Source: Thermobifida alba
Lineage (GTDB): Bacteria; Actinomycetota; Actinomycetes; Streptosporangiales; Streptosporangiaceae
Direction of reading: 5' to 3'
DNA length: 64,000 nucleotides
NCBI RefSeq assembly: GCF_023208015.1
Contig: NZ_CP051627.1
Location: forward strand, 2,923,501 to 2,987,500
Positions 10,446-39,746 of this stretch are shown piece by piece. The translations under genes were made by a program, and so were the position numbers. Below the pieces are notes generated by a model. That model worked only from the letters and a program-made list of their open reading frames with translations. It was not told the DNA's origin and searched no databases. Positions within the stretch are counted from its first letter, which is position 1. Each line of letters begins with the position of its first letter.

Positions 10446-10462
10446 GACATGCCACACATGTC
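10446..10462. promoter_or_regulatory. Short inverted repeat in the fbiA upstream region
   Basis: GACATG (10446-10451) and CATGTC (10457-10462) form a 6-bp inverted repeat with a 5-base spacer, inside the 216-base gap between the divergent repeat-protein gene and fbiA. It could be an operator for either gene; at this length chance is also possible. Confidence 0.3.
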
Positions 10463-10541
10463 CGTGTGTCCGCCAGTGACCGCGCGGGCACGCGGCACCG
10501 GGGGGCGCGGCGCACGTTCCCAGACTGCCAGACTTGACCTT

Positions 10542-22524: not shown

Positions 22525-22546
22525 CGCCTATTCCCCCTGGTGTTCG

Positions 22547-24065: not shown

Positions 24066-26243
24066 TCACGGGCCGTCCGGCGCGGGGCGCTCGTCCGCCA
24101 CGATCAGCCGGACCCACTGCTCCAGCACCTGCGGCAGCGCGTACCGCTCGGCGATCTCGGCACGGGCCGCGGCGCGCTCCGCGTCGAAGCGGTCCCCGGT
24201 GACGACGGCGTGCACGGCGTCGGCCATCGCCGTGACGTCGCGGTGGATCCAGCGGGGCGAGTAGACGGTGTCCGCGCCGGGCCAGTGCCACACCACGGGC
24301 ACGCTGCCCGACGCGGCTCCCTCGGCCGCGGCCCGGTGGAAACTCTCGTCGTCACCGGTGGACAGGATGAAGCCGACCCGGCGCAGCCACGCCGCGACGT
24401 CGGGGCCGTAGGGGTCGAACACCACCGCCTCGGCGAGCCGTCCGGACCGCTGGATGCGCCGGTAGGCGTGCTCGTAGTGGGCGCGCTCCTCCGGACGGTT
24501 CCACACCCACCAGTAGTCCCACGGCTGCCGGGTCTTGACCGCCAGCGTGTAGCGGGGGTCGCGGCCGCGCAGCTCGGTGAGCACGTCCAGGGCCCGGTCC
24601 AGTCGCTTGCGGGACGGGACGGCGCCGAGCACGCCCAGCGTGTACCGGGCGCCTTCCAGTTTGGGGCGGGACAACTGCGCCACGTCGATCCCCTCGGGCA
24701 GCACCACCATCTGGTCGGCGGGCCAGCTGGCGTGTTCGCGGGCGCGTTCCGCGTAGTGCCGGCTGACGCAGACGACGGCGTCCACCTTCTCGATGTCGAG
24801 GCGGCGCGGCCACTCGGTGGCCAGTTCGAACCGGTGCAGCCGCACCAGCAGCCGCTGCCCGGACCGCTTGTGCCGGGCGTAGAACAGCGCGTGCGGGCCG
24901 CACCACTCGCAGACCACCACGTCGGCCCAGGCGGCCAGCTCCCGGCTGAGGTACTGGTCGTGGGTGTGCGGCCCCTCCCACTCGTCCAGGCGCAGCTCCA
25001 CGCCGGGCAGACCGTCCAGGTGCCGGATGAGGGGGTCGAGTCCGGTGAGGTCGGGGCCGGCGACCGCCACCTTCAGCGGCAGGCGCGGGTTGGTCCCCCG
25101 CGGCGCGGGCGGCAGGGCCGTACGCAGCAGCGAACGCAGTGTCTCCACGCCCCGGTCGGGGGTGAACCGGGCGGCCGCGGCCGCGCAGCGGGCCGCCGCC
25201 TCCCGGTGGACCTCCGGCCGTCCCGCCCGTTCCAGTGCGGCGGCCGCCCCCTGGGGGGCGGGGTCGGCGTACAGGGGGTAGTCGGCCCCGAGCAGCTCCT
25301 CGTACAGCGGGGTGCGGTTGACCACCACGGGAATCCCCAGTGCGCCCGGTTCCAGCGCGGTCAGCGCCGGGGCCAGCGCGGCGTCGGAGTCGTGGCGGTG
25401 CCAGGACAGGGCGACGTGGCAGTCGGCGAGCAGCCCCAGGGCCTCCTCCCGGGAGCGGCCGCCGTGCCAGACCACGTTGGGGGTGTGCTCCAGCGCCTTG
25501 GCCGCACGCCGCGTCCACTCCGGGGACCCGCGGCCGAGGGCGCCGACCACGTGCAGTTCGGCGGGGACGCCGCGGGCGGCGAGGAGCGCGGGCAGCTCGG
25601 TCATCTCCGGGACGTTGCGGGACTCCGTGAGCGAACCGGCGTAGCCGACGCGCAGCGGCACGCCCGGCCCGTCCGCGGCGGGTCGGCGCGGCGCGGTGAG
25701 CGCCGGGGGCAGCAGCACGGCGCGACCGCAGGCGGCGGGGACGTTGGACTCCAGGAAGCAGCGCAGCTCCTCCCCCGCGCACAGCAGGAACCGGGAGGCC
25801 AGCGCGATGTCGGTGAGTTCCGAGACCACCCCCGGGGTCATCCCCGCCAGGGTGGGCGGGATGTCGTCCACGCAGGTCCACAGCCGTCCGGCGAGGGCCT
25901 CGGAGTGGGCGGCGACCACGGCGGTGCGCCGTCCGCGGAGCACCACGAGGTGGAAGCGCCGCTCGGCATCGATCCGGGTGATCAGTTCCACGGCCTGCTC
26001 CGGCGTGAGCCCCTGGGGACCGGGGTCGACGCGGTGCCCGCCCTCCTGCGGGTGGCGCACCGTGACGTCCGACGTTCCCGCCAGGGCCGCGGTCAGGCGG
26101 TCCGTGGCCGGCCTGCTCCTCAGCAGGAGCATGGTGGAACATCCGGCCGCCGCCAGCGCCCGCGCCATGGACTGTGCCCACACCGCGGCCGCGTCCAGGG
26201 AGTCGGGGTCGGCGTCGCCGTAGACGAGTGCGCGGATGCTCAC
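24066..26243 (-). CDS. Two-domain GT-B glycosyltransferase
   Basis: A 725-residue protein that appears to hold two successive GT-B (GT4-like) units. The first (about 1-370) includes RVGYAGSLTESRNVPEM and a late HVALSWHRHDSDAALAP segment; the second (about 385-725) includes WADVVVCEWCGPHALFYARH, VDAVVCVSRHYAERA, VLPEGIDVAQLSRPK, LGVLGAVPSRKRLDRAL and a FILSTGDDESFHRAAAEG donor site. Start is GTG 26243 behind AGAAAGGAAG. The partner gene upstream on the same strand encodes a coiled-coil protein of similar size. Together they look like a capsule or teichuronic-type polymer pair, but the product is unknown. Confidence 0.8.
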   Translation of the reverse strand: MSIRALVYGDADPDSLDAAAVWAQSMARALAAAGCSTMLLLRSRPATDRLTAALAGTSDVTVRHPQEGGHRVDPGPQGLTPEQAVELITRIDAERRFHLVVLRGRRTAVVAAHSEALAGRLWTCVDDIPPTLAGMTPGVVSELTDIALASRFLLCAGEELRCFLESNVPAACGRAVLLPPALTAPRRPAADGPGVPLRVGYAGSLTESRNVPEMTELPALLAARGVPAELHVVGALGRGSPEWTRRAAKALEHTPNVVWHGGRSREEALGLLADCHVALSWHRHDSDAALAPALTALEPGALGIPVVVNRTPLYEELLGADYPLYADPAPQGAAAALERAGRPEVHREAAARCAAAAARFTPDRGVETLRSLLRTALPPAPRGTNPRLPLKVAVAGPDLTGLDPLIRHLDGLPGVELRLDEWEGPHTHDQYLSRELAAWADVVVCEWCGPHALFYARHKRSGQRLLVRLHRFELATEWPRRLDIEKVDAVVCVSRHYAERAREHASWPADQMVVLPEGIDVAQLSRPKLEGARYTLGVLGAVPSRKRLDRALDVLTELRGRDPRYTLAVKTRQPWDYWWVWNRPEERAHYEHAYRRIQRSGRLAEAVVFDPYGPDVAAWLRRVGFILSTGDDESFHRAAAEGAASGSVPVVWHWPGADTVYSPRWIHRDVTAMADAVHAVVTGDRFDAERAAARAEIAERYALPQVLEQWVRLIVADERPAPDGP

Positions 26244-26334: not shown

Positions 26335-28029
26335 TCAGCCGGCGTGTGCGTGGTCCGGCGCGGCGCCCCGTTCGGTGGGGCGGGGCTCGCCGAGGGCGAG
26401 GAGGCGGGCGCCGTGGCGGCTCCAGACCCCGGGGTGCAGGCCCCTGCGGACGAGGTCGCGGCGGGCGAGGAACGGACGCACCTCGGTGACGAACACGTAC
26501 TCCTGTCCGGCGGCGAGCCACCCGAGGCCGGTGCCGTCGGCGCGTGCTTCCCCGGTTCCGCCCGCGACCACGGCGGGTCCGACGGCGTCGGCGCCGGAGC
26601 ACTCCGCGGCGCACAGGGCGTCGACCAGGAAGGACTCTCCCGAGGGACGGTCCCACAGCGCCGTCCACGGTGCGGTGGCGGCTTCGGCGAGCCGGGCCCA
26701 CTCCGCGGACGACCGGGGCTCCCCGGGGGCGGCGTCCGCCGTGCGCACCGTGAGGCCGCGGTCCCGGAGCCGTCGGATTCCGGCGAAGTCGGCGTGGGAG
26801 GCGGGCACGACGATCTCGGCGGGCAGATGCTGCTGGCGGAACATGTCGTCGGCCAGGGCCAGCGACTCGGTGTCGTCGAAGGGGCTGGCCAGCACGGCGA
26901 CGGCGCGGTGGGCCAGCGGCTGGGTCCGGGTTCCGCCCCCGGGCAGCAGCCGCACCCGGCCCAGCAGGTCCGCCAGGAGCACGGGGGTGGCCCGGGTCAG
27001 GAAGAGGGAGCGCAGGACCAGGCGCAGTTCGCCGGGGGTGAGGGGGCCCTCCGCGACGGCCTGGGCGAGGTCGGCGTCCGCGGTGGCGGTGCGGGCCGCG
27101 GTGGCCGGCAGTCCGGGGCCGGGGGAGCCGTCGGCGATGAGGACCCGGGTACCGCAGGCCAGGGCCCGGTCGGCCAGGGCCGGGGTGTCCACGACCGCGA
27201 CCGCGGCGGCGCGCAGGGTCTGGGGCAGGTCCTCCCAGTGGACGTCGGCGTGCAGTGCCCCGCCGTCGGCCGCGACGAGGGGGTGCGGGGGACGGCCGGT
27301 TCCGCAGACGCGCACCGGGGCGGCCGCGCGTTCCGGTTCCGCGGCGATCGGGTTGTAGCGGTGCAGGGGAACCCCGAGGTCGCCGTCGTGGACGTGGTCG
27401 AAGCCGAGTCCGGCCAGGGCGGGGGCGGCGGGGGCGTCGCGGACGAGGACCGACGCCACGCCGCGGGCGGCGGCCGCCTCCAGCACCCAGCGCAGCGCCC
27501 TGGTGCGGTCCACCGCGGCGGGGTCGCCCAGGTGCGCCCACGGGCTGCCGGGACGGGCCGCCGAGGCGGTGACCAGCACCAGGTCGACATCGGCGGAGTC
27601 GAAGACGACCTGGACGTCGTGGGGGCGCAGCGGAATGGTCCGCGCGTACGGTTCCAGGGCGGCGCGGGCCTCGGCCGAGAGCACCCCGGCGACGACGATC
27701 CGCTCGTCCCCGAAGGCCGGTTGCCCGGCCAGCAGCCGGGCCTCCTGGCGTTCGGTCTCGTAGGAGCGGACCGGTTCGGGGGTGCGCGCCTTCCGTTCCG
27801 TCCGCTCGCCGGGCCGACCGCTGCCCCGCCACAGCCGGTACAGTTCCCGCGGCAGGCTGACCAGTCCCCGGGCGGGCCGCCGGGCGGCTCCGGCGAGTGC
27901 CCGGCCCACCTGGAGGGAGGTCGAGCCCTCCAGGGCGGCCAGGCGGGCCTGGACCTCCTGGAGTTGCGCCTCCCGCGCGGCCAGCGCCCTGCGGAGTTGC
28001 TCGGTCTGGCTCTGCTCACGCCGCTTCAT
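26335..28029 (-). CDS. Coiled-coil, glycosyltransferase-associated protein of unknown function
   Basis: A 564-residue protein, start ATG 28029 with GGAGG upstream. Residues about 5-38 (SQTEQLRRALAAREAQLQEV onward) form a clear heptad coiled coil, ending in LEGSTSLQVGRAL, a short segment often seen near the N-terminus of polymer glycosyltransferases. The rest alternates strands and helices with repeated Rossmann-like halves (VVAGVLS, VLVTASAA, RVLIADGSPGPGLP) and may be one or two degenerate GT-B or GT-A units; no clear catalytic motif is seen. It precedes the two-domain glycosyltransferase by 91 bases on the same strand. A scaffold or polymer-length partner is possible; I do not assign an activity. 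Confidence 0.6.
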   Translation of the reverse strand: MKRREQSQTEQLRRALAAREAQLQEVQARLAALEGSTSLQVGRALAGAARRPARGLVSLPRELYRLWRGSGRPGERTERKARTPEPVRSYETERQEARLLAGQPAFGDERIVVAGVLSAEARAALEPYARTIPLRPHDVQVVFDSADVDLVLVTASAARPGSPWAHLGDPAAVDRTRALRWVLEAAAARGVASVLVRDAPAAPALAGLGFDHVHDGDLGVPLHRYNPIAAEPERAAAPVRVCGTGRPPHPLVAADGGALHADVHWEDLPQTLRAAAVAVVDTPALADRALACGTRVLIADGSPGPGLPATAARTATADADLAQAVAEGPLTPGELRLVLRSLFLTRATPVLLADLLGRVRLLPGGGTRTQPLAHRAVAVLASPFDDTESLALADDMFRQQHLPAEIVVPASHADFAGIRRLRDRGLTVRTADAAPGEPRSSAEWARLAEAATAPWTALWDRPSGESFLVDALCAAECSGADAVGPAVVAGGTGEARADGTGLGWLAAGQEYVFVTEVRPFLARRDLVRRGLHPGVWSRHGARLLALGEPRPTERGAAPDHAHAG

Positions 28030-28599
28030 AGTCCGTCCTCCCGGCGCGTTCGCACCTGCGGGGCCCGTGCGGACGCCACCTCTTCCCCTCCCCCACGTTG
28101 GCGAACGCGGATGAACGGGTGATGAACTGGGCTCCACGCCCGACGGTCGCTTCGGCGTTCCGTGCCCGGACAGCCGAGGCGTCGGGCACCGCCATCGTAG
28201 TGCCCGCTCCGGTCCCGCCCGGGACGGCTCCTCCTCCGGCGCTCCGCGTGAATCGACGAGTGCAAACAGCAGCCCACCCTCCCCGGCGGAATCATTAAAT
28301 TTGTCGATGACACCAAGACCGTTTCTTTGCCGATCCGGCAATTCGCCAATCTTCGTGGAATCGTTTTCCCATCACGGCTTCTCTCCCTCTCGCGCCGGAA
28401 CGGGCGATATCATCATGCGCGCGCCGAGAGCAGCCCGCAGCCGCATACCCAGATATCGGCCACCCATGTCTCCAGGAACAAGAATGTCCTGATCAGGCCA
28501 GAGAGATATCGGAAGGCAACGCGGTACCAATCTCAGGCGTCTAGCTACCGGGAAAACGAACATCCCGCGAGCATGTTTTCCATATGAGGGAGATCAACT
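28030..28599. other. 570-base gap, relatively AT-rich, no gene seen
   Basis: This gap separates the divergent coiled-coil gene (minus) and nucleotide-sugar dehydrogenase (plus). From about 28280 to 28590 the DNA is visibly richer in A and T than the rest of the window (for example ATTAAATTTGTCGATGAC near 28294). No open frame in it has actinobacterial codon bias. It must hold both promoters, but I cannot pick convincing -35/-10 pairs. No insertion-sequence remnants or long repeats are visible. Confidence 0.6.
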
Positions 28600-29919
28600 G
28601 TGGGCGTCTCGACCTACACCTCTGACCTGGTGGTCGTCGGCCTGGGATACGTCGGCCTTCCGTTGGCGCAGGAGGCTTCCCGGTCCGGGTTGAAAGTCAC
28701 CGGACTCGACGTGAGCCAGCGCGTGGTCGACGGACTGAACGCGGGGAAGTCGCACATCGACGACCTCTCCGAGTCGGATATCGCGGACATGCGGATGGCC
28801 GGGTTCACCGCGACCTCGGACCCGAGCGTCCTGCGGCATGCCCAGACCATCGTGATCTGCGTTCCCACTCCCCTGTCGGAGGAGGGCTCCCCCGATCTCG
28901 GCGCGGTCACCTCCGCGGCGGAGGCGATCTCGGCCCACCTGTCCCCGGGAACCCTGGTCATCCTGGAGTCGACCACCTTTCCCGGCACCACCGACGAGGT
29001 GCTCCGCCCGATCCTGGAACGGTCCGGGCTGGTCGCGGGCCAGGATTTCCACCTGGCGTTCTCCCCCGAGCGGATCGACCCGGGCAATCCCCTCTTCGGG
29101 GTGTCCAACACCCCGAAGGTCGTGGGCGGCTACACCGACCTCTGCGGTGAACTCGCGGCGGCCTTCTACGGCAAGTTCGTGCGCACGGTGGTGCGGGCGC
29201 GCGGCACCCGGGAGGCCGAGATGGCCAAACTCCTGGAAAACACCTACCGGCACGTGAACATCGCCCTGGTCAACGAGATGGCGGTGTTCTGCCGTGAACT
29301 GGGCGTGGACCTGTGGGACGCCATTGCCTGCGCCGCCACCAAGCCGTTCGGTTTCCAGGCGTTCTACCCCGGTCCGGGGGTGGGCGGACACTGCATCCCC
29401 ATCGACCCCAACTACCTTTCGTACAAGGTCAAGACCCTGGGGTACCCGTTCCGCTTCGTCGAACTGGCCCAGGAGATCAACACGCGGATGCCCGACCACG
29501 TGCTGCGGCGCGTCCAGGACATGCTCAACGACGCCGGGCTGGCGCTGTCGCGGGCCACGGTCCTGCTGCTGGGGGTCACCTACAAGGCGGACATCGCCGA
29601 CCAGCGTGAGTCCCCCGCCCGCCCCGTGGCGGCCAAGCTCGCGGAGAAGGGCGCCACGCTGCTCTTCCACGACCCGCACGTCACCGAGTGGCAGGTGGAC
29701 GGCTCCCCGGTGCAGCGGGTGCCCGACCTGGAGGAGGCGCTGGGCGAGGCCGACCTGACGGTCCTGCTCACCGACCACCGGGAGTACACGCCGGAGCTGC
29801 TGCTGAAGCGGAGCCGACGGCTGCTGGACACCAGGGGGGTGCTGCGCCGCGCCGACCACGACCTTCCGGAGGGCCGGCTCACCGCCCCGGTCTCCCGCGA
29901 CGGGGTCCAGGTGCTTTGA
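28600..29919 (+). CDS. Nucleotide-sugar dehydrogenase (UDP-HexNAc/WecC-WbpA type)
   Basis: Oxidises C6 of a UDP-sugar to the uronic acid with two NAD. The 439-residue protein has the Rossmann start VVVGLGYVGLPLAQ (about 11-24), the central helix EMAKLLENTYRHVNIALVNE and the catalytic cysteine in GVGGHCIPIDPNYLSYK. GGHCIPIDP is the form found in UDP-ManNAc/UDP-GlcNAc dehydrogenases, whereas UDP-glucose dehydrogenase has GGxCLPKD, as seen in the second dehydrogenase at 43547. Start GTG 28600 lies behind GGGAGATC. A long hairpin follows at 29957-30015. Substrate choice is inferred from the active-site form only. Confidence 0.85.
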   Translation: MGVSTYTSDLVVVGLGYVGLPLAQEASRSGLKVTGLDVSQRVVDGLNAGKSHIDDLSESDIADMRMAGFTATSDPSVLRHAQTIVICVPTPLSEEGSPDLGAVTSAAEAISAHLSPGTLVILESTTFPGTTDEVLRPILERSGLVAGQDFHLAFSPERIDPGNPLFGVSNTPKVVGGYTDLCGELAAAFYGKFVRTVVRARGTREAEMAKLLENTYRHVNIALVNEMAVFCRELGVDLWDAIACAATKPFGFQAFYPGPGVGGHCIPIDPNYLSYKVKTLGYPFRFVELAQEINTRMPDHVLRRVQDMLNDAGLALSRATVLLLGVTYKADIADQRESPARPVAAKLAEKGATLLFHDPHVTEWQVDGSPVQRVPDLEEALGEADLTVLLTDHREYTPELLLKRSRRLLDTRGVLRRADHDLPEGRLTAPVSRDGVQVL

Positions 29920-30879: not shown

Positions 30880-31944
30880 TCAGATGATCGGCGGCCGCCC
30901 GTCCAGGGTCATCCGCCAGGCGGTGGACCACCGGATCGGCCTGCGCCGCCCCGCGTCGGTGCGCCACCCCTCGCGGAACCCCGCGAACCAGGCGCGCAGC
31001 GCGTCGGCGGAGCGTTCCCGCAGCACCGTCAGCGCCACCCAGACCGCCAGGTAGACCACGGCCAGCGGCCACGGCAGGTTGCGCCGGGCCAGCCAGACCC
31101 GGTTGCGCGCGTTGAGCCGGTAGAAGTCGGCGTGCCGGGTCGGGGCGGTCGCCGGGTGGTACATGACCGCCTCGGCGTCGTACTCGATGTGGAAGCCCTC
31201 GTCCAGGATGCGCCAGGCCAGGTCGGTCTCCTCGTGCGCGTAGAAGAACTCGTCCGGCAGGCCGCCGCCCCGCTCGAATGCGGTGCGCCGGACCGCCGAG
31301 GCCCCGCCCAGGAAGGTGGTCACCCGGCTGGAGCGCCCCGGGTCGCCCACCCGCAGCCGGGGCACGTGCCGCCGCTGGTCGGGGCCGCCGTCGGGATCGG
31401 CGATCCGGAAGGAGAGCACCCCCAGGGAGGGGTCCGCCGCGAACCGGTCGTGCACGTGCCGCCCCAGGTCCCGGGACCGGTACCAGCCGTCGTCGTCGAG
31501 GAACAGGATGACGTCGCCGGTGCTGGCCCGGACGCCCTCGTTGCGTCCGGCCGGGATCCCGACGTTCTCGGGCAGTCGCACCGTGACCACCCGGTCGTCC
31601 AGTTCCGGCAGGTCCGCCCCGTTGCCGACGACGACCACCTCGATGTCGACGCCCTCCTGCTCGAACACGCTGGCGATGGCCCGGCGCAGTTCTGCCGGGC
31701 GGTTGCCCATCGTCAGCAGCACACAGGAGAGCCTCAACCGCTGTGTCCCTCCGCGTTCCGGAACGTCCTCGTCCCGCCCCTGTTCGGTCCGCGCGAACCC
31801 GTCGTAGGGGTGCTTGTCCTGGGGGGACGCGGCGGCCTCGCCGGACGCCGCGTCCTGCCGCGCCGTGTGCGGAGAGGAGACGGAACTGCTCATCGACAAC
31901 CGTTCATCGAGATGTATGACAGGCCAACGGAATTCAACGGTCAC
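30880..31944 (-). CDS. Glycosyltransferase family 2
   Basis: Up to 354 residues; the start is uncertain between GTG 31944 and ATG 31893, neither with a good ribosome site, and the first 65 residues look disordered. The GT-A domain begins at LRLSCVLLTMGNRPAEL, then VVVGNGADLP, ENVGIPAGRNEG, the metal motif FLDDDGW and the acceptor loop EFFYAHEETDLAWRILD. A hydrophobic segment near LAVVYLAVWVALTVL suggests membrane association. It is the last gene of the minus-strand polyol-phosphate set (37787 to 30880) and probably extends or decorates that polymer. A 58-base gap separates it from the CDP-alcohol transferase. Confidence 0.85.
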   Translation of the reverse strand: MTVEFRWPVIHLDERLSMSSSVSSPHTARQDAASGEAAASPQDKHPYDGFARTEQGRDEDVPERGGTQRLRLSCVLLTMGNRPAELRRAIASVFEQEGVDIEVVVVGNGADLPELDDRVVTVRLPENVGIPAGRNEGVRASTGDVILFLDDDGWYRSRDLGRHVHDRFAADPSLGVLSFRIADPDGGPDQRRHVPRLRVGDPGRSSRVTTFLGGASAVRRTAFERGGGLPDEFFYAHEETDLAWRILDEGFHIEYDAEAVMYHPATAPTRHADFYRLNARNRVWLARRNLPWPLAVVYLAVWVALTVLRERSADALRAWFAGFREGWRTDAGRRRPIRWSTAWRMTLDGRPPII

Positions 31945-32002
31945 ATGAACCGGATAACGACCGTATCAATATCCGGAACCGGGAGGGGGGCGGTCGGGCG
32001 GT

Positions 32003-32773
32003 TCACCGCAGCCGGTTGGACGCCAGGATGCTCACCAGGTGCAGCACCGTCTGCACCGCCGCCACCGCGACGCACGCGGCCGTGAGCACCTGGGTGGCCA
32101 GCAGGTCGCCGCGGACCGCGTCCACCACCGCCGCCACCACGACCAGCAGCGACAGCTCCACCGCCTGGATGATGCGGTGGAACCGCAGCGCGGAGGCGAC
32201 CGTCCGGGCCAGGCTCAGCCCGGCGGAGCGGGGCCGCAGCGCCTCCTCCGACACCTGCTCGCCCAGCCCCGCCTTGGCCCGGGCCACCACCACGTTGTCG
32301 GTCTCCGCCTTGATCAGCGCCGCTCCCAGCGCCGCGGCCAGCCCGGCGACCACCCAGCCCCCGGCGGCGAACTCCCCCTGGGCGCGTATCCCCAGCCCGA
32401 TCAGCAGTGCCACCTCGGACAGGTAGTGGCCGATGCGGTCCAGGTAGACGCCGGTCACGCTGGTCCGGCCGGTGAACCGGGCGACCTCGCCGTCGGAGCA
32501 GTCCAGCAGCAGGTAGACCTGGATGAGCGCGGCGGCCAGCAGCGCCGACCACAGCCCGCCGAAGGCCAGCACGACTCCGGCGAGCACGCCGCAGACCATC
32601 ATCAGGTAGGTGATCGGGTTCGGCGGCACGCCCAGGCGGACGAAGAACGTGCTCACGTAGGGCGAGAGGTCCCGCATGTAGAGGCGCCCCGCCCAGTGCT
32701 CCTCGTTGACCCGTTCCTTGATTCCTTCGGGCTGGCCACCGGCCCGAACCTCAGCGACCGAGGGCTTGGACAT
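32003..32773 (-). CDS. CDP-alcohol phosphatidyltransferase family protein
   Basis: A 256-residue membrane enzyme with about six helices that would move a phospho-alcohol from a CDP-activated donor onto an acceptor alcohol. The family signature D-x2-D-G-x2-A-R-x8-G-x3-D-x3-D is recognisable: Asp91, Asp94, Gly95, Ala98, Arg99, Gly108 and Asp112. The last position, normally the catalytic-base aspartate, is His116 here (YLDRIGHYLSE). Start ATG 32773 lies inside the end of the upstream dehydrogenase gene (23-base overlap), so the two are tightly coupled. With the adjacent nucleotidyltransferase and G1P-dehydrogenase homologue it probably makes a phospho-polyol lipid or polymer unit rather than ordinary phosphatidylglycerol. 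Confidence 0.85.
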   Translation of the reverse strand: MSKPSVAEVRAGGQPEGIKERVNEEHWAGRLYMRDLSPYVSTFFVRLGVPPNPITYLMMVCGVLAGVVLAFGGLWSALLAAALIQVYLLLDCSDGEVARFTGRTSVTGVYLDRIGHYLSEVALLIGLGIRAQGEFAAGGWVVAGLAAALGAALIKAETDNVVVARAKAGLGEQVSEEALRPRSAGLSLARTVASALRFHRIIQAVELSLLVVVAAVVDAVRGDLLATQVLTAACVAVAAVQTVLHLVSILASNRLR

Positions 32774-33818
32774 AGTCGCGAACGCTCCGCCTGATCTCGT
32801 CTTCGGAAAGGTTGAGGTGCTCCAGGATCGTATAGCGCCCCGGCCGTGTGGACGGCGCGAAGACCACGGCGCGCACGAACTGCTCCTCGTCCAGCCCCAC
32901 GTCGGCGGGGACGGTCGGCAGTCCGTGGCGCTTCAGGCAGGCGTGGATGTCCCGGAGCTGCTGCTCGCCCTCGCCCAGGTACCGGGAGCGCAGGAAGAAG
33001 GCGTACAGCGTGCCCAGGCCGGCCAGCTCCCCGTGGTTGCTGGTGCCCGGGTAGAGCTGGTCGATGGCGTGCAGGACCTCGTGGTCGGCGCCGCTGGCGG
33101 GGCGGCTGGACCCGGCCACCGACATCGCCATGCCCGACAGCACGAGCGCCTCGGCCAGCGCGGTCAGGAAGTCCTGGGAGTCGACGGAGTCTCCGCGGTG
33201 CAGCACCGCCTCGGCCGCGACCCTGGCGAAGGTGACGGCCATGCCGTCCACCGGTTCGCCCTGCTCGGCGCCTGCCAGCTCCCAGTCGGCAATCGCGGAC
33301 AGGTTGCTCAGCACGTCCCCGATGCCCGAGCGGACCAGCCGGTCCGGGGCAGCACGCACGTAGTCCACGTCCACCACCACCGCGATCGGCAGGGTCACCC
33401 CGTAGGAGCTCTTGCCGCTCTCGTGCTCCAGCGAGCTGACCGGGGAGGCGATGCCGTCGTGGGAGAGGTTGGTGGCGACCGCGATCATCGGGATCCCCGC
33501 CATGGTGGCGGCGAACTTGGTGACGTCGATGGTCTTCCCGCCGCCGATCCCGGCGACCGCCTCGTAGGCTCCGGCCCGCAGCTTCTTGCCGAGTTCGTTG
33601 GCGGTGTCCACGGTGCCGTCCTCGACCCGGAACACCTCGCAGTTGGGCAGGTCGAGTTCGGCGGCGATCTGGGCGCCCTGCCCGGGGCCGACCGCCACCG
33701 CGATCCGCCCCTCGTGGGCGATGCGCCGGTCGGCGAGCAGCAGCCCGAGGTCCGCGATCGCTCCGCGCCGCACGTCGATCGAGAGCGGCGAGGCGATCAT
33801 CCGGGCTAGTAGCGGCAT
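32751..33818 (-). CDS. sn-Glycerol-1-phosphate dehydrogenase family protein (EgsA/AraM-like)
   Basis: A 355-residue member of the iron/zinc alcohol-dehydrogenase superfamily closest to glycerol-1-phosphate dehydrogenases, which reduce dihydroxyacetone phosphate to sn-glycerol-1-phosphate, the archaeal enantiomer. Features are GIGGGKTIDVTKFAA (about 90-104) for NAD(P), NLSHDGIASPVSS (117-129), and all three expected metal ligands: Asp168 (GIGDVLS), His246 (SGADHEV) and His262 (TSNHGE). Start ATG 33818 overlaps the upstream nucleotidyltransferase gene by 13 bases. Activity on another polyol ketone-phosphate is also possible. The tight coupling with a nucleotidyltransferase and a CDP-alcohol transferase implies a made-to-order CDP-polyol pathway. 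Confidence 0.85.
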   Translation of the reverse strand: MPLLARMIASPLSIDVRRGAIADLGLLLADRRIAHEGRIAVAVGPGQGAQIAAELDLPNCEVFRVEDGTVDTANELGKKLRAGAYEAVAGIGGGKTIDVTKFAATMAGIPMIAVATNLSHDGIASPVSSLEHESGKSSYGVTLPIAVVVDVDYVRAAPDRLVRSGIGDVLSNLSAIADWELAGAEQGEPVDGMAVTFARVAAEAVLHRGDSVDSQDFLTALAEALVLSGMAMSVAGSSRPASGADHEVLHAIDQLYPGTSNHGELAGLGTLYAFFLRSRYLGEGEQQLRDIHACLKRHGLPTVPADVGLDEEQFVRAVVFAPSTRPGRYTILEHLNLSEDEIRRSVRDYVQALGR

Positions 33819-34537
33819 GCGATCTCCCGGGCGCGGGCCAGGTCGTCGTGGTTGTCCACCTCGACCCAGTCGACCTCGCCGATCGGCGCCACGGCGATCC
33901 TGCCGCCCCGGTCGACCAGTTCCTGGTAGCCGTCCTCGTAGTACAGCTGGGGGTCGCGTTCCCAGGTGGTGCGCAGCGCGTCGGCCAGGCGGCCGGCGAT
34001 GCCGCCCTCGATGAGGGTGACCCCGATGTACTCGCCCGCGGCCGTCGCGGGGTCCATCAGCTTGGTGATCCGGCTGAGGTGCCCCGTCTCGTCCAGGGTC
34101 ACCTTCATCTCCTCGTCGGCGAGTGTTTTCACGTTGTCCACCGCGAGGACGATCTCCGGTCCCCTGTTGGCGAGTAGTGTCTTCTCCACACCGACCGGGT
34201 GCACGGTGTCGCCGTTGACCAGCAGCACCCCTTCAGCGAAGTAGTCACGCGCGGTCCACAGCGAGTAGGCGTTGTTCCACTCCTCGGCCTTGTCGTTGAA
34301 GACCGTGGTGATCTTCACGCCGTGCCGGCGTTCCAGCGCCTCCCGGCGCTCCTCGACCGCCTCGGAGCGGTATCCGACGACGACCACCACGTCGGTGAGG
34401 CCCACTGCGGCCAGGTTGCGCAGTGAGATGTCCATGATGGTGGTGTCGCCGTCCACCGGCACCAGCGCCTTGGGCAGTGTGTCGGTGTACGGGCGCAGCC
34501 GGCGCCCCGCCCCCGCGGCGAGAATCATGCCGAGCAT
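33806..34537 (-). CDS. NTP-transferase, probable polyol-phosphate cytidylyltransferase
   Basis: A 243-residue sugar-nucleotidyltransferase-fold protein: MILAAGAGRRLRPYTDTLPK (residues 4-23) is the canonical nucleotide loop, LVNGDTVHP (about 107-115) carries the metal-binding Asp, and VDWVEVDNHDDLARAREI closes the fold. The sequence type resembles inositol-1-phosphate/CTP transferases that partner CDP-alcohol phosphotransferases, so I infer activation of a polyol phosphate with CTP; hexose-1-phosphate activation cannot be excluded. I chose ATG 34537 behind GGAGGGAGG over an upstream TTG. It lies 17 bases after the DUF5941-like gene and overlaps the dehydrogenase gene. Confidence 0.8.
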   Translation of the reverse strand: MLGMILAAGAGRRLRPYTDTLPKALVPVDGDTTIMDISLRNLAAVGLTDVVVVVGYRSEAVEERREALERRHGVKITTVFNDKAEEWNNAYSLWTARDYFAEGVLLVNGDTVHPVGVEKTLLANRGPEIVLAVDNVKTLADEEMKVTLDETGHLSRITKLMDPATAAGEYIGVTLIEGGIAGRLADALRTTWERDPQLYYEDGYQELVDRGGRIAVAPIGEVDWVEVDNHDDLARAREIACRY

Positions 34538-34554
34538 GTCGGCGCCTCCCTCCC

Positions 34555-35196
34555 TCAACTGTCGGAGGCTGCGACGCCTCCTCGTGTGTCACGCGGTCCG
34601 TGGTTCGCCACCGTGGTCACCGGCGCCGCGAGCCAGCTCGTGGCGGTCTCCCACACGAGCAGGACCGTCAGATAGCCCAGCAGCAGACCGTAGGTGAAGG
34701 GGAACCATCCCATCGCCCCTCCGGCCGCGATCAGGAGCATCCGACCGTCCCAGCCCAGCATGGCCCGCCTGGCCCACCCGGACGGGGGGACACCGTGGCG
34801 TGCCCGGCGTACGGCGGAACCGTGGTGGAGGACGACCAGCGCGACGAGCGCGAACACCAGAGGACCCGGTACGCCTGAACCGTAGCCGAGGGCGAACAGG
34901 TACAGGTATTCGGCTCCGTGCAGCAGCGGTGGAACGATCCAGTCGAACCGTCCGTCGTGCGGATGCGCGGAGGCCACCCCTGACAGCAGGAGCGCCGCCG
35001 CCGGTGCGAACAGGGTAACCCCGGTCAGATCCCCGAAACCGGTGAGCAGCAGGACGCCCATCACCAGGATTCCGGCGAAGGCGGGCAGGACCGGCGGGAG
35101 CGCCCCCTGGACGAGGGTGCCGATCCCCGTGCTCAGGTGACCGTCATCGCGAAGAAAACGCAGGTCAACGTGGTGGGACTGCGAAGCGGAGTTCAT
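34555..35196 (-). CDS. DUF5941-like membrane protein
   Basis: A 213-residue protein with about five hydrophobic segments. The segment SAHPHDGRFDWIVPPLLHGAE (about 76-96) and the later GWDGRMLLIAAGGAMGWF resemble the C-terminal part of the DUF5941 proteins of Streptomyces, as I recall them; those are large fusions that also contain nucleotidyltransferase and CDP-alcohol-transferase-like parts. Here the parts are separate genes. Start ATG 35196 follows GAGGG and lies 9 bases from the end of the upstream membrane-protein gene. Function is unknown; membrane partner of the polyol-phosphate pathway is the natural inference. Confidence 0.65.
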   Translation of the reverse strand: MNSASQSHHVDLRFLRDDGHLSTGIGTLVQGALPPVLPAFAGILVMGVLLLTGFGDLTGVTLFAPAAALLLSGVASAHPHDGRFDWIVPPLLHGAEYLYLFALGYGSGVPGPLVFALVALVVLHHGSAVRRARHGVPPSGWARRAMLGWDGRMLLIAAGGAMGWFPFTYGLLLGYLTVLLVWETATSWLAAPVTTVANHGPRDTRGGVAASDS

Positions 35197-35205
35197 CTGC
35201 GGCCC

Positions 35206-36069
35206 TCACTGGGGATCACGGTGGGGGGTCATCGTCGCGGTGGCCACCGCGACGGCGGAGCCGAGGATCAGCGCCGGGAAGGCCGCTGATGCACCCCAAA
35301 TCGTTACCGAGACGGCGATCACGAGGAAGCGTTCGGAGGGCCCGAAGGCCGCCAGGGCGCCGAGGAGCTCCCCCACGCCTCCGGAAGGTGCGGGGGCGGT
35401 CGGCTTCCCGACGGCTTCGGGGGGTACGGCGCCGTCGTGGGCGAGGGGGCGTGCCCCGCCCTCCCGCCGCGGCAGGGCGGTCCGTCCGCGGACCGGGTCG
35501 TTCCGCTCGGCACCGTCGTCGCGGCGGCGGGCAGCACCCAGCAGTTCGGCGGTGAACTCCGGGTCGGCCGGCTCCCGGCTGTCGCGGCTGGGGTCCACCG
35601 CCTCGATCGGGGAGGTCCTCGGCCCGCCGCGCCGCGGGGGGACCGGGCTGCGGGACGCGCGGGCCGCCGTCACCGACTCGCGTACCGCGTACGCGACGAG
35701 CGCCCCGGCTGCCCACATCCAGGCGTCGGTGCGGCCCGCCAGGCCCGCGCCGACCGCCAGGGCCGCGTAGAGCACGAACTCGCGCAGGTGGACCAGGACC
35801 GCGACCGTCCAGGCGGTGAGCGTGTCGCTGCTCTGCTCCCCCAGGCGGTCGCCGACCGCGTCGCAGCAGAGCACCAGCGCCAGCGCGAGCGCCCCGGCCA
35901 GGCCGCCCACCGGGGACGGGTCGGTGAACCACACGGCTGCCACGACGGTGAGGACGACCCCCGCCCGGGCCAGGGCCGCCGGGGTGGTCCCCCGGCGCGC
36001 GGCCCAGCGCACGACGGGTCCGGCCAGCGGCCGCAGCCCGCGGGCGGTGAGTACTCCGGTCTCCGTCAC
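35206..36069 (-). CDS. Membrane protein, degenerate CDP-alcohol-transferase-like
   Basis: A 287-residue protein. I chose GTG 36069 because GGAAGGG lies upstream; the open frame extends to 36141 without a ribosome site. Four to five hydrophobic segments lie in residues 35-125, a charged, disordered region (about 140-235) follows, and two more helices end the protein. The stretch ALALVLCCDAVGDRLGEQSS (about 61-80) sits where a CDP-alcohol transferase would have its D-x2-D-G-x2-A-R motif, but the motif is not conserved. It may be the inactive N-terminal half of a split DUF5941-like protein. Function unknown; same operon as the genes on either side. Confidence 0.6.
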   Translation of the reverse strand: MTETGVLTARGLRPLAGPVVRWAARRGTTPAALARAGVVLTVVAAVWFTDPSPVGGLAGALALALVLCCDAVGDRLGEQSSDTLTAWTVAVLVHLREFVLYAALAVGAGLAGRTDAWMWAAGALVAYAVRESVTAARASRSPVPPRRGGPRTSPIEAVDPSRDSREPADPEFTAELLGAARRRDDGAERNDPVRGRTALPRREGGARPLAHDGAVPPEAVGKPTAPAPSGGVGELLGALAAFGPSERFLVIAVSVTIWGASAAFPALILGSAVAVATATMTPHRDPQ

Positions 36070-36165
36070 TCGCCGCGCCCTTCCCACACGTGTTCGTGGT
36101 GTAACCGTTACCCATGCGGGGACCGCTTGGCAAGCGGCCACACGGACCGTGTGCCCCGGGGCGGC

Positions 36166-36957
36166 TCAGGCGGCCTTGTCGCCGCCCTTCTTCTTGCGCT
36201 TGGCGATCTCGGCCTTGGTGTCGGCGTTGTAGGCGTCCAACGCGGCCTTGATGTCGGTGTCCAGCGCCAGCTCGCCGTTCCTGATGTAGAGGCCGCGGTC
36301 GCAGAAGCGCTTCAGGTCGCCCTCGTTGTGCGAGACCAGGACCATGGTGCGCTGGTTCTGCAGCATCCGCTCGATGGCGTCGTAGCACTTGTTGCGGAAG
36401 GACTTGTCGCCCACCGCGAGCACCTCGTCCACGAGCATGATGGGGTGCTCCAGCTGGGAGATCAGCGCGAAGCCGAGCCGCACCTTCATACCGCTGGAGT
36501 AGTGGCGCACCGGGGTGTCGATGAACCGCGACTCGATCTCGGCGAAGTCGATGATCTCGTCGAACCGCTCCTGCAGCATCTGCGGGCTCATGCCGTGCAG
36601 GGAGCCCACGAGGTGCACGTTCTCCCGGCCGGTGAGCTGGTCGTTGAAACCCGCGCGCAGCTCCAGCAGCGGGGCGACCCGGCCGCGGACGGTGACGGTG
36701 CCCTCGTCGGGGATGAGCACTCCGGCGATCAGCTTGAGCAGGGTCGACTTCCCGGTGCCGTTCTTGCCGACGATGCCGACGCACTCGCCCCTGGTCACCT
36801 CGAAGGAGACGTTGCGCAGCGCCCAGAAGTCGGCGGCGCCGCGGTTGGGGTCGCGCTTGGTCCCGTGGATGAACATCTCCCGCAGGCTGCGCTTGCGTCG
36901 GCGGTTCGTCGCGAACTTGATGCCGAGCCCCTTGGCCTCGATGACCGGCTCCGCCAT
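36166..36957 (-). CDS. ABC transporter ATPase for polysaccharide/teichoic acid export
   Basis: A 263-residue ATPase of the TagH/Wzt type. It has Walker A GKNGTGKST (64-72), signature YSSGMKVRLGF, Walker B PIMLVDEVLAVGD and the switch His in LVSHNEGDLKRF. The short N-terminal insert REMFIHGTKRDPNRGAADFW is typical of exporters of surface polymers, which enter the ABC subfamily with TagH and RfbB. There is no long C-terminal carbohydrate-binding domain. Start ATG 36957 shares one base with the permease stop (TAATG) and follows AAGGAG, so the pair is coupled. It would power export of the polymer made by the flanking genes. Confidence 0.93.
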   Translation of the reverse strand: MAEPVIEAKGLGIKFATNRRRKRSLREMFIHGTKRDPNRGAADFWALRNVSFEVTRGECVGIVGKNGTGKSTLLKLIAGVLIPDEGTVTVRGRVAPLLELRAGFNDQLTGRENVHLVGSLHGMSPQMLQERFDEIIDFAEIESRFIDTPVRHYSSGMKVRLGFALISQLEHPIMLVDEVLAVGDKSFRNKCYDAIERMLQNQRTMVLVSHNEGDLKRFCDRGLYIRNGELALDTDIKAALDAYNADTKAEIAKRKKKGGDKAA

Positions 36958-37787
36958 TACAACTCCTTAAGAACGGCGCTTTCGAGTCGTCGGAACGTGA
37001 CATACCCGACCAGCAGCACCAGGAGGGCCCCCCCGACCGCAGCGCACAGGACGGACGCGGGAGGCGCCTCGGTGCTGTACCACACCGCGTGGTGCATCTG
37101 GAAGATACCGGCCAGCGGGTTGTGCGCGTAGAGCGTCTTGAACCAGTCGGGAAGCGCCTCGACCTCCATGACACGGAACATCGGGTAGATGATGGGCGTC
37201 CCGTAGAACAGCACCCGGTTCAGAATACGGACGATCCGCTCCACGTCGCGCAGCAGCACGTTGATGGAGGACAGCAGCAGCGTCACCCCCAGCGACAGGA
37301 CGAACTGCACCAGGATCGCCGGGATGATCCAGAAGAAGTTCCAGCCGGTCTCCCCCTGCAGGGTGATCACGAACAGCAGCAGGACCGGCCAGGTGAGCAG
37401 GTACTCCACGAACTTGGTCTGCACGATGGCGATCGGGAAGATCTCCCGGGGCACCTTCATCGTGGTGATCAGTTTGGAGTGGGTGATGAGCGCCTTGGGG
37501 GCGTCGCTCAGCGCCGCGCTGAACCACATCCACGGCAGCAGACCCGAGAGCAGGAACAGGGCGTAGCCCCCGGGCGCGTCGGGACCGCCCGGGGCCTCCC
37601 GCGCCCCGCCGGTCGCCGCGAACACCACGCCGAAGACGAAGTAGTAGACGCAGGCCATCGCCAGCGGCTCCAACATCGACCAGGCGTAGCCGAGGATCGA
37701 GTTCTGGTATTTGACCTTGAGATCACGGCGGACCAGGTGTCCGACGACTTTCCGGTTCCGCCAGACGGCCAGCGTCCTCGACGCCAC
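36957..37787 (-). CDS. ABC-2 type permease for polysaccharide/teichoic acid export
   Basis: A 276-residue permease of the TagG/Wzm class. I use GTG 37787, with GAGGAGG five bases upstream; the longer open frame has no protein-like content. It opens with the amphipathic VVGHLVRRDLKVKYQNSILGYAWSMLEP element diagnostic of this family (shown here only as family type, residues about 14-41), followed by six membrane helices. LLSSINVLLRDVERIVRIL and the C-terminal basic/hydrophobic end fit the same family. It is the first gene of the minus-strand set and is divergent from the IspD/TarI gene, so its promoter must lie in 37788-38220. Confidence 0.92.
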   Translation of the reverse strand: MASRTLAVWRNRKVVGHLVRRDLKVKYQNSILGYAWSMLEPLAMACVYYFVFGVVFAATGGAREAPGGPDAPGGYALFLLSGLLPWMWFSAALSDAPKALITHSKLITTMKVPREIFPIAIVQTKFVEYLLTWPVLLLFVITLQGETGWNFFWIIPAILVQFVLSLGVTLLLSSINVLLRDVERIVRILNRVLFYGTPIIYPMFRVMEVEALPDWFKTLYAHNPLAGIFQMHHAVWYSTEAPPASVLCAAVGGALLVLLVGYVTFRRLESAVLKEL

Positions 37788-38220
37788 CGCCACCTCCTCG
37801 GGATGCAGTCGTATGGGAACGATCGCGCGACGCGTATCGCCGTGGGACCAGGGGTTTGCCTGTGGCGCCCGGAGCGGCCGGCGAAGCCGTCGGTACACCG
37901 CGGCGGCGTCCGGGCCGCCGTCACAGGACGTCTCGCGTGTGACAGCGGCAGGGATGCTCGGGGGGTTGGCGACGCCGCTCGGGAGCCGGCCGGGACACGT
38001 CCGCCGCGCCTCCGGGAGAACACCGGGACCAGACCCATATTCGCACGATCGGCGGCCCCGCGATTCCAGGCGTCCTAAGGTTACCGGTCGGACAGACCGA
38101 TTGTCCCGTTCGAGAGGGATTGTTCCTTCGTCTCCGGACAGTCCCGGGGACTCCCGACGCCGTTGGGCTAGCCTCTCCTCTGTTCCACCGCTGTGTCCCG
38201 TCGCACCCGGGAGAGGGGTC
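37788..38220. other. 433-base divergent promoter region
   Basis: It separates the minus-strand exporter operon from the plus-strand IspD/TarI gene. TAGCCT at 38169-38174 fits an actinobacterial -10 box and would give the plus-strand gene a leader of about 40 bases with a GGGAGAGGGG ribosome site. A small hairpin CGGTC/GACCG lies at 38085-38099. For the minus strand I see no convincing promoter. No gene-like open frame is present. Confidence 0.5.
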
Positions 38221-38970
38221 ATGTCGATCGATCAGCCCGTCCGCGGCCGACCGCACGTGACGGCCGCCGTGCTCGCCGGCGGCGTGGGGTCCCGCATGGG
38301 CGGCCCGCGTCCCAAGCAGCTCCTGCGGCTGGCCGGACGAACGGTCCTGGAACGCTCGATCGCGGCGTTCTGCGCCGCACCCGAGGTGGACGAGGTCGTC
38401 GTGGTCATGGTCGCCGACCACGTCGCCGAGGCCGAGAAGATCGTCGCCGAGGGCGGACACGGCAAGGTGTCCCGGATCGTCCCCGGCGGGGCGAGCCGCT
38501 CCGAGAGCTCCCGCGCGGCCCTGCGGGCGGTCCGGGACCGCGCGGACGACGACCTGCTGCTGCTGCACGACGCCGCGCGCCCCCTGGTGAGCGGCCGCAC
38601 CATCGCCGCCTGCGTGGCCGAGCTCGCCGAGGCCGGAGCGGTCGGCGTGGCCGTGCCGTCCAGCGACACGGTGGTGCGGGTCGCCACCGACGCGCACGGG
38701 CACGAGGTGATCGACTCGGTCCCCGACCGCTCCGGGCTGCGCCGGATGCAGACACCGCAGGGCTTCCGGCTCGGGGTGGTCCGCCGCGCCTACGAGCGGG
38801 CGTTCGCCGACCCCGCCTTCGTGGCCACCGACGACTGCGGCGTGGTGCTGCGCTACCTGCCGGAGGAACCGGTCCGCATCGTCCCCGGCGAGGAGAGCAA
38901 CATCAAGGTGACCCATCCCGGTGACCTCGCGGTGGCCGAGACCCTGCTGCGCGCCGCGGAGGAGCGGTGA
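38221..38970 (+). CDS. IspD/TarI-family cytidylyltransferase
   Basis: A 249-residue CTP:phospho-polyol cytidylyltransferase with the loop VLAGGVGSRMGGPRPKQLL (about 18-36), LLLHDAARPLVS (about 116-127), VPSSDTVVRV, and the C-terminal DDCGVVLRYLPEEPVRIVPGE with NIKVT. IspD makes CDP-methylerythritol for isoprenoids; TarI makes CDP-ribitol for teichoic acid. The usual IspD partner IspF is absent and the gene sits opposite a teichoic-acid-type exporter and next to a glycerophosphodiesterase, so a TarI-like role is quite possible. Sequence alone does not separate the two. Start ATG 38221 follows GGGAGAGGGG. Confidence 0.85.
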   Translation: MSIDQPVRGRPHVTAAVLAGGVGSRMGGPRPKQLLRLAGRTVLERSIAAFCAAPEVDEVVVVMVADHVAEAEKIVAEGGHGKVSRIVPGGASRSESSRAALRAVRDRADDDLLLLHDAARPLVSGRTIAACVAELAEAGAVGVAVPSSDTVVRVATDAHGHEVIDSVPDRSGLRRMQTPQGFRLGVVRRAYERAFADPAFVATDDCGVVLRYLPEEPVRIVPGEESNIKVTHPGDLAVAETLLRAAEER

Positions 38971-39746
38971 TGTTCGTCCCGACCGAGGTGATCGGACACC
39001 GGGGGCTCGGCCGCGGCACGGTCGACGGCCTGCTGGAGAACACCCCCGAGTCGTTCGCCGCGGCCGCGGCGGCCGGAGCCTCCTGGGTGGAGGTCGACGT
39101 CCGGCGCAGCGCCGACGACGTGCTGCTGGCGTACCACAACGCGGCTCTGCCCGACGGGCGCCTCGTCGTGGACCTGCCCGCCGCGGAGTGCCGGGCCGCC
39201 GGGGTGGCCACCCTGGACGAGGTGCTCGACGCCGTTCCCGCGCACGTCGGTCTGGACGTGGACGTCAAGACGGTGCTGGAGGACGCCGTGGACGCGCCCG
39301 CGCGGCGCACCGTGGCGCTGCTGGCGCCGTACCTGCGGCGGCAGGTGCGGTTCCGGCGGCTCTTCGTGTGCTCCTTCGACCCCTCGGTGGTGCTGGCCGT
39401 GCGCGAGCAGGCGCCCGGCGTGGCCACCGCGTGGATGCCGTTCGTCCGCAATCCGGTGGACCAGGCGGTGGCGGGCGCGGCCGGCCTGGGCTGTGAACTG
39501 GTCGCGATCGACGCCCGCTCCTTCGGCCTGGCCGGTGAGCCGGAGCGTCCCGGCCGCCGTTCGCCGGAGGAGACGGTCGAGGCGGCGCACCGGGCCGGCC
39601 TGCGGGTGGTGTCGTGGTGCCCCGGCCCGGCGGACTCGGTCCGCCTCGCCGCGGCCGGGATGGACGCCGTCGTCGTCGACGACGTCCCGGGCACCGTGCG
39701 GGCCCTCGCCGCCGCGGCGCCGGCCTCCGCCCGGCCCGCGGGGTGA
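38970..39746 (+). CDS. Glycerophosphodiester phosphodiesterase family protein
   Basis: Hydrolyses glycerophosphodiesters to glycerol-3-phosphate and an alcohol. The 258-residue protein shows the family start EVIGHRGLGRG with HRG and ENTPESF (residues 5-28), the metal-binding WVEVDVRRSADDVLLAYHN, and the late VVSWCPG strand. It has no signal peptide, so it is cytoplasmic unless exported otherwise. ATG 38970 overlaps the stop of the upstream gene (TGATG) with AGGAG five bases before, so the two are coupled. In this context it may recycle or trim glycerol-phosphate units. It converges on the GT2 gene. Confidence 0.9.
   Translation: MFVPTEVIGHRGLGRGTVDGLLENTPESFAAAAAAGASWVEVDVRRSADDVLLAYHNAALPDGRLVVDLPAAECRAAGVATLDEVLDAVPAHVGLDVDVKTVLEDAVDAPARRTVALLAPYLRRQVRFRRLFVCSFDPSVVLAVREQAPGVATAWMPFVRNPVDQAVAGAAGLGCELVAIDARSFGLAGEPERPGRRSPEETVEAAHRAGLRVVSWCPGPADSVRLAAAGMDAVVVDDVPGTVRALAAAAPASARPAG

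Follow-up and report, generated by a model that had tools for sequence, protein, structure and literature searches.

A conserved actinobacterial operon predicted to make and use CDP-glycerol beside a teichoic-acid-type exporter

An operon of Thermobifida alba and its relatives

The lipoteichoic acid (LTA) of Streptomyces hygroscopicus is a polyglycerolphosphate, and clear orthologues of LtaS are said to be missing from sequenced actinobacterial genomes; the available text of PMC3196553 treats the making of such a polymer without LtaS as an open question, and its authors favour a pathway common to LTA and wall teichoic acid, citing tagB/tagF orthologues. In Streptomyces, the synteny of CDP-alcohol phosphotransferase (CDP-AP), GT2 glycosyltransferase and nucleotidyltransferase (NTase) clusters with crtB, tagH, tagG and araM is already in print and has been linked to teichoic acid biosynthesis (PMC13118837). 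Among described relatives of the single enzymes, the structure of the CDP-AP AF2299 was determined in complex with CDP-glycerol (PMC4634129, PMC8633023), and CpgD, a COG1213-type NTase, makes CDP-glycerate (PMC12275187). Here we describe an operon of Thermobifida alba that sets an NTase, a CDP-AP and a GT2 with a homologue of sn-glycerol-1-phosphate dehydrogenase (G1PDH) beside a TagGH-type exporter, and that offers candidate enzymes for the LTA question. It lies in a 64,000-nt window of contig NZ_CP051627.1, which is the whole stretch of DNA that was analysed and to which all coordinates refer; the genome is a single contig of 4.9 Mb. The genes are given here in the order of their transcription.

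36957 to 37787, minus strand: ABC-2 permease, TagG/Wzm type (PF01061, 41.4 bits)
36166 to 36957, minus strand: ABC ATPase, TagH/Wzt type (PF00005, 76.2 bits)
35206 to 36069, minus strand: assigned as an eroded CDP-AP (start GTG 36069 set by eye, longer open reading frame from 36141)
34555 to 35196, minus strand: DUF5941 membrane protein (PF19365, 78.6 bits)
33806 to 34537, minus strand: NTase, LicC / inositol-phosphate cytidylyltransferase type by similarity (NTP_transferase, 51.5 bits)
32751 to 33818, minus strand: G1PDH homologue, EgsA/AraM type (Fe-ADH_2, 96.6 bits)
32003 to 32773, minus strand: CDP-AP (PF01066, 30 bits, cut-off 22)
30880 to 31944, minus strand: GT2 glycosyltransferase, directly behind the CDP-AP gene (PF00535, 64.1 bits)

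An original prediction, made from the letters of the window, had placed an NTase, a G1PDH homologue, a CDP-AP and a GT2 beside a TagGH-type exporter, and Pfam together with the gene calls confirmed this content. The overlaps it had reported, 13 bases between the NTase and G1PDH genes and 23 bases between the G1PDH and CDP-AP genes, are exact in the window. Its two DUF5941-like proteins were half borne out: 34555-35196 does match DUF5941, but neither Pfam nor NCBIfam gave a match for the open reading frame at 35206-36141, which appears to be an eroded CDP-AP. The NTase starts at an ATG after GGAGGGAGG, in a longer open reading frame that begins at TTG 34558. The permease start was set by eye at GTG 37787, with GAGGAGG ahead of it, in a frame open to 38222; the Pfam and NCBIfam runs scored this gene as 36957-37877. 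The exporter genes share the strand of the other genes and precede them by 96 bases, provided that the eroded CDP-AP begins at GTG 36069; they are counted as part of the block. The permease scored 49.4 bits with a galactan ABC permease model (under its cut-off of 380), and the ATPase 199.8 bits with the teichoic acid export ATPase model PRK13545 (under its cut-off of 538).

The block is conserved far beyond chance. In a 296-genome phylum sample, a strong G1PDH orthologue (E <1e-100) was found in 14 genomes, including all eight f3/g3 genomes, which we infer to be Streptomyces from their synteny with PMC13118837. The NTase, G1PDH and CDP-AP genes (at least 47% identity) occurred together in 11 of the 13 first-tier loci outside the window (L033-L043), and a twelfth, L032, had only a weak CDP-AP match; GT2 was present in 12 of these 13 loci, and DUF5941 and its partner protein were both present in 10. 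A second set comprised 80 named actinobacterial loci, the best 80 of 591 relatives, some of which end at contig edges. The three-gene order of the original prediction extends across these loci, with the NTase and the G1PDH in 80 of 80 and the CDP-AP in 79, along with GT2 (79), DUF5941 (74), the partner protein (65), IspD (72), another GT2 (71), LCP (69) and glycerophosphodiester phosphodiesterase (GDPD; 34). Even the overlaps persist, the 13-base one at 30 of 80 loci and the 23-base one at 63 of 79. The exporter lies upstream of the block in Nocardiopsaceae and L043 and downstream of it at the eight f3 loci and L123, indicating that the link between block and exporter exists in more than one arrangement. 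Among the matches listed, the best named relatives of the window are Nocardiopsaceae such as Nocardiopsis and Streptomonospora, and three other genomes of the genus (3.6, 4.4 and 5.5 Mb) carry the window gene at 88-93% identity. A literature search that omitted most subscription papers returned neither a functional study of the operon nor any DUF5941 paper. The genes are presumably SCO6752-6756 of S. coelicolor, numbers under which no functional study was found.

More distant genomes keep the first two enzymes and change the third. A second tier of G1PDH orthologues comprised 18 genomes (E 1e-47 to 4e-59), 15 of them in family f10, and loci L016-L031 were obtained from 16 of these. The NTase gene is directly beside the G1PDH gene in 14 of the 16; L017 stops at a contig edge, and in L021 the two are about 3 kb apart. 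The third enzyme is a CDP-AP in L048 and a weak CDP-AP match facing the G1PDH gene in L047. In f10 it is a PF01663 phosphodiesterase-family protein (Pfam was run on L046 only), with homologues at 9 of the 16 loci; in L046 it is accompanied by Bac_transf and DUF4012 genes. The order DUF4012, NTase, G1PDH, PF01663 phosphodiesterase, Bac_transf recurs at f10 loci (L046, L049, L051 and others). In genome G121 (L050), a TagF-type PF04464 protein (313.8 bits) is encoded divergently from the NTase-G1PDH pair, with a GDPD gene alongside. Our main argument for the product is that a TagF-type enzyme, an AF2299-type CDP-AP, the NTase and the G1PDH would share one substrate, which would be CDP-glycerol. 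The conserved order and the changing third enzyme support the one-pathway logic of the original prediction, in which a keto-phosphate is reduced, activated with CTP, transferred and exported.

Candidate enzymes of the block

The dehydrogenase scored 254.3 bits with the NCBIfam G1PDH model NF002022 and 72.4 bits with the glycerol dehydrogenase model. In a PDB search its best match was 4rgq, deposited as a G1PDH (165.5 bits), and chains named G1PDH scored 80.5-165.5 bits; 3ce9, deposited as a glycerol dehydrogenase, reached 150.4 bits, all other glycerol dehydrogenases stayed at or below 58.8 bits, and dehydroquinate synthases at or below 31.1 bits. A profile of ten orthologues ranked 3ce9 first (221 bits, against 211 bits for 4rgq). 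The metal ligands Asp168, His246 and His262 named in the original prediction were all found; across the ten aligned orthologues both histidines are invariant, and Asp168 is Asp in nine and Glu in L014. By these similarities the dehydrogenase is nearer to G1PDHs than to other Fe-ADH families, and sn-glycerol-1-phosphate (G1P) is our best guess for its substrate/product. The original prediction had called bacterial G1PDHs rare and known mainly from Bacillus AraM, which does not agree with the homologues reported in 14 of 44 bacterial phyla, in work that used a Streptomyces sequence and has actinobacterial G1PDH in its tree (Yokobori 2016, PMC5059525). A PcrB-type lipid was considered as the sink for G1P and rejected for this genus because PcrB (PF01884) was absent from all four of its genomes, in a search that did detect it in 7 of 14 controls, B. 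subtilis among them.

A profile of the NTase matched LicC (64.8 bits over positions 4-103) and 4jd0 (52.3 bits over positions 4-235), the latter an inositol-1-phosphate cytidylyltransferase of T. maritima (PMC12275187). The GxGRR, PK and NGD residues are invariant in 28 of 28 aligned sequences, and no NCBIfam cut-off was reached among the best 25 of 36 families. Judged by similarity and catalytic motifs, the NTase is a cytidylyltransferase of the LicC/IPCT type (COG1213), and we propose that it acts as a CTP:glycerol-1-phosphate cytidylyltransferase.

AF2299 is the nearest solved relative of the CDP-AP both by profile (58.1 bits) and by fold, where it was the top match; in the structural model (pLDDT 87.3), Foldseek PDB ranks 1-28 are all CDP-APs. 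The model has seven helices of at least 18 residues, the first of which is weakly hydrophobic (best 17-residue mean 0.49, against 1.19-2.36 in the other six) and is thus read as juxtamembrane, with the six that follow probably spanning the membrane. Since CDP-APs with six helices reportedly act on soluble acceptors (PMC4634129), CDP-glycerol might instead be joined to a soluble polyol or polyol phosphate and glycosylated by the GT2, giving a small phosphodiester such as diglycerol-phosphate or a DIPP-like compatible solute. The matches of both the NTase (53.7 bits) and the CDP-AP (42.4 bits) to the bifunctional IPCT/DIPPS enzyme fit such a product, but the conserved GT2, the TagGH-type exporter linked in several lineages, the LCP ligases nearby, and the pairing of NTase and G1PDH with Bac_transf, DUF4012 or TagF-like genes in distant lineages argue for an envelope product, and we consider the soluble compound quite unlikely. 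The next PDB profile matches of the CDP-AP, cholinephosphotransferase (30.4 bits) and CEPT1 (24.1 bits), suggest a Kennedy-type alternative, in which CDP-(sn-1)-glycerol would be transferred to a lipid to give a minor glycerophospholipid or phosphoglycolipid that is glycosylated by the GT2 and flipped by the ABC transporter; two squalene/phytoene-synthase genes downstream in L035, the sole f3 locus scanned, would suit it as well. Against this stand the CDP-AP model, which is without the extra C-terminal helices described for lipid-acceptor CDP-APs (PMC4634129), and the TagF-like partner in G121, so that a lipid head group also strikes us as a doubtful product.

The signature D1xxD2GxxAR...GxxxD3xxxD4 is incomplete in the CDP-AP of the window, which keeps seven of its eight residues and has His at D4. 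Of 93 CDP-AP sequences, 68 have His at D4, 23 have Ala, and two have Asp (L032 and L045, both weak matches); with His in the window and Asp so rare in relatives we file the protein as a divergent subfamily. Where D4 is Ala, an intact CDP-AP motif is found elsewhere in the locus in 23 of 23 cases; where it is His, 34 loci have such a motif and 34 do not. This distribution fits His acting as the base where no intact CDP-AP partner exists, in lineages that are few and at loci some of which are cut. In CEPT1, D158A retained about 15% activity, and its authors proposed a His near the site as base.

The candidate partner is the protein at 35206-36069, which, judged from its neighbourhood and sequence, is an eroded CDP-AP: CDAVGDRLGEQS stands where the catalytic motif DxxDGxxAR is expected, and the protein sits where relatives have an intact CDP-AP domain. 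The partner protein carries the intact motif at 8 of 8 f3 loci, and in one of these (L035) it is a 604-residue fusion whose CDP-AP domain (40.5 bits) precedes a DUF5941 part (308.7 bits, residues 397-604). Streptosporangiales loci with the motif have two separate genes, the first bearing it, and in Nocardiopsaceae (the window included) and some Actinomadura the motif is eroded and the protein retained. A separate fusion of an eroded CDP-AP with DUF5941 occurs in Actinomadura chibensis (L099, 7393-8628). The N-terminal part of the relatives' partner protein was also considered as an NTase, for which profile comparison gave no support.

DUF5941 itself (PF19365) appears, from its model, to share the CDP-AP fold but to lack the CDP-binding motif, a result that suggests a fold for that family. 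The model (pLDDT 85.1) returned only CDP-APs at Foldseek PDB ranks 1-8 (probability 0.80-1.00), led by AF2299 (probability 1.00, TM 0.57, E 0.065); E-values for these ranks were 0.065-1.7, with no match at 0.001 or better. Profile comparison with CDP-APs (hhalign) gave probabilities of 0.2 and 0.8 percent and thus no support for this assignment, which the fold search supports with weak E-values. The operon thus holds three CDP-AP-type proteins, recognized by Pfam and fold in the first case, by fold only in the second, and by position and sequence in the third.

Teichoic acid context and neighbouring genes

The TagF-type family PF04464 was found in 12 of the 14 first-tier genomes and in 16 of the 282 others (Fisher 3e-12; 8 of the 14 belong to one genus). 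Within the genus of the window it exceeded the cut-off in three of four genomes, and in the window's own genome it lies far from the operon. That genome's only match is a 950-residue open reading frame (L162, 9318-12170) with a GT2-like start, as judged by eye, near an Obg-like open reading frame. TagD-like matches of at least 100 bits occurred in 13 of 296 genomes, all of which lie outside the two G1PDH tiers. Among the 28 PF04464 genomes, 13 have G1PDH, 6 have TagD of at least 100 bits and none has both (hypergeometric P 0.013). In the four genomes of the genus, the best match to TagD (TIGR01518, cut-off 165.4) was 36.4 bits over about half of the model. PF00884 (sulfatase fold), used in a search for LtaS, gave two matches in G000, of 190.8 and 35 bits, either of which may or may not be a membrane enzyme of the LtaS type.

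Three neighbours of the block, all on the opposite strand, belong to families that bear on this context.

38233 to 38970, plus strand: IspD-type cytidylyltransferase, divergent neighbour (PF01128, 178 bits)
38967 to 39746, plus strand: GDPD (PF03009, 75.5 bits)
41046 to 42581, plus strand: LCP-LytR_C cell-wall glycopolymer ligase (PF03816, 174 bits; PF13399, 52.5 bits)

The block is bracketed by two LCP-LytR_C genes, this one and 22475-23980; CglA, a protein of the same type, has been described as a cell wall glycopolymer ligase (PMC11481543). The IspD-like neighbour was considered as a TarI partner and set aside: two of four genomes of the genus have no strong IspD other than its orthologue, so it is probably housekeeping and outside the pathway. 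A second strong IspD-type cytidylyltransferase in the window's genome (L163, 7885-9294), possibly TarI-like, has no strong counterpart in two of the four genomes. Two genes of the UDP-glucose/GDP-mannose dehydrogenase family lie on either side of the block (28600-29919 and 43547-44878). Between the first of these and an LCP gene are a GT4-type gene (24066-26243) and a gene for a large protein (26335-28341) that had no Pfam match at 1e-5. Elsewhere in the window are coenzyme F420 genes, encoding CofD (10353-11510) and a radical SAM protein (12906-15554) whose C-terminal part matches CofH.

Proposed pathway and comparison with known systems

Based on gene content, motifs, predicted folds, conserved order and co-occurrence, we propose a pathway in which dihydroxyacetone phosphate (DHAP) would become G1P and then CDP-(sn-1)-glycerol, ending in a polymer or lipid of the envelope that carries glycerophosphate. 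We see the chances of this reading as evenly balanced; each reaction in it is predicted, as are the chirality of G1P, CTP as the nucleotide, the acceptor, the complex and the surface location. The G1PDH homologue would reduce DHAP to G1P, and the NTase would convert G1P and CTP to CDP-(sn-1)-glycerol. The AF2299-like CDP-AP, together with as many as two paralogues that share its fold (DUF5941 and the eroded CDP-AP), would then move glycerophosphate onto an acceptor at the cytoplasmic side; the GT2 would glycosylate the product and the TagGH-type ABC transporter export it. The end product would be a glycerophosphate-containing envelope polymer or lipid of the teichoic acid type, and the same CDP-glycerol pool may supply the TagF-like polymerase elsewhere in the genome, where no clear TagD was found. 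The pathway logic of the original prediction and G1P as best guess thus stand, but its pair of DUF5941 proteins and its Bacillus-centred view of G1PDH do not.

Several observations weigh against this pathway. The dehydrogenase misses the NF002022 equivalog cut-off of 413 and was therefore filed as a G1PDH homologue rather than an equivalog, and the NTase family also accepts phosphocholine, inositol phosphate and others, its specificity for G1P being predicted only. D4, named the likely catalytic base (PMC4634129), is missing from 91 of the 93 CDP-AP sequences, and a D-to-N change at this position nearly abolished the activity of PIPS. The six-helix architecture fits a small phosphodiester no less than a polymer. 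Conservation has gaps: L044 has no NTase match, L123 has neither a CDP-AP nor a GT2 match, and among the 80 named loci only 24 have the ABC ATPase (three of these matches, L093, L096 and L116, are distant or weak) and only 20 the permease. TagF stands beside the NTase-G1PDH pair in a single genome, G121, and the co-occurrence statistics are phylogenetically dependent, with one genus contributing 8 of the 14 genomes. G045 and G086 have the operon and no PF04464 match, and G298, of the window's genus, has none either. Of the PF04464 genomes, 28 in all, nine lack both G1PDH and a TagD of 100 bits, and four have weaker TagD-like matches (52-66 bits) alongside G1PDH, so that the exclusion of TagD and G1PDH is not strict and holds only at TagD scores of at least 100 bits. 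Finally, the route to LTA through tagB/tagF favoured in the available text of PMC3196553 does not need this operon.

Some of these points would also suit a different substrate, in that the Fe-ADH protein might reduce another keto-phosphate and the NTase activate that polyol or alcohol phosphate. Both the Fe-ADH and the LicC-type families are broad, the G1PDH score of 254 of 413 bits leaves room for this, and the LicC alignment is confined to NTase positions 4-103. The ranking and ligand conservation with solved G1PDHs point back to G1P, and the TagF-like and AF2299-like partners indicate glycerol; we therefore regard another polyol phosphate as unlikely. A phosphonate route was set aside, there being no PEP (phosphoenolpyruvate) mutase among the Pfam matches of the scanned genes of the window and its relatives, although no genome-wide search was made.

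If the preferred pathway from DHAP to an envelope glycerophosphate holds, the operon could explain the source of a teichoic acid building block in Streptomyces-like bacteria. If in addition the glycerol is sn-1, the glycerol enantiomer of archaea would be part of the envelope in many soil-dwelling and antibiotic-producing bacteria, and G1P made in bacteria would have an outlet other than PcrB. Tentatively, and with the thought that this fuller version is rather improbable, we suggest that a CDP-sn-1-glycerol pool made by G1PDH and the LicC-type NTase replaces TagD in Streptomycete, Nocardiopsaceae and Streptosporangiales envelopes and supplies the polyglycerolphosphate of LTA and wall teichoic acid in these bacteria, which are said to have no LtaS, and that it is used by a membrane complex in which as many as three proteins have the CDP-AP fold, no more than two of them being catalytic and one relying on His where Asp is usually the base.

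Among known systems, the Streptomyces araM-tagG-tagH-crtB synteny group with its CDP-AP, GT2 and NTase is very probably the same operon; the available text of PMC13118837 gives no mechanism, substrate, chirality or range beyond Streptomyces for it. The TagD-TagB-TagF-TagGH wall teichoic acid pathway follows a common plan of CDP-glycerol, phosphotransferase, ABC exporter and LCP ligase, but the window has a LicC-type NTase in place of TagD, a CDP-AP in place of TagB/TagF and, by prediction, G1P in place of glycerol-3-phosphate. Bacillus AraM and archaeal EgsA share the sequence family and metal ligands of the dehydrogenase; in Bacillus the known user of G1P is PcrB, whereas the four Thermobifida genomes are without PcrB and have a fixed NTase neighbour instead. 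Caulobacter CpgD is, like the NTase of the window, of the COG1213/4JD0 type and acts on a three-carbon phosphate, but it makes its CDP-glycerate for a sphingolipid and, in the available text of PMC12275187, has no G1PDH or CDP-AP alongside. AF2299, the nearest by sequence and fold, and IPCT-DIPPS likewise pair an NTase with a CDP-AP; the operon of the window differs from them in its separate genes, in its additional G1PDH and GT2, in the His or Ala at D4 of its CDP-AP family, and in two further CDP-AP-type proteins, one recognized by fold only and one apparently eroded.

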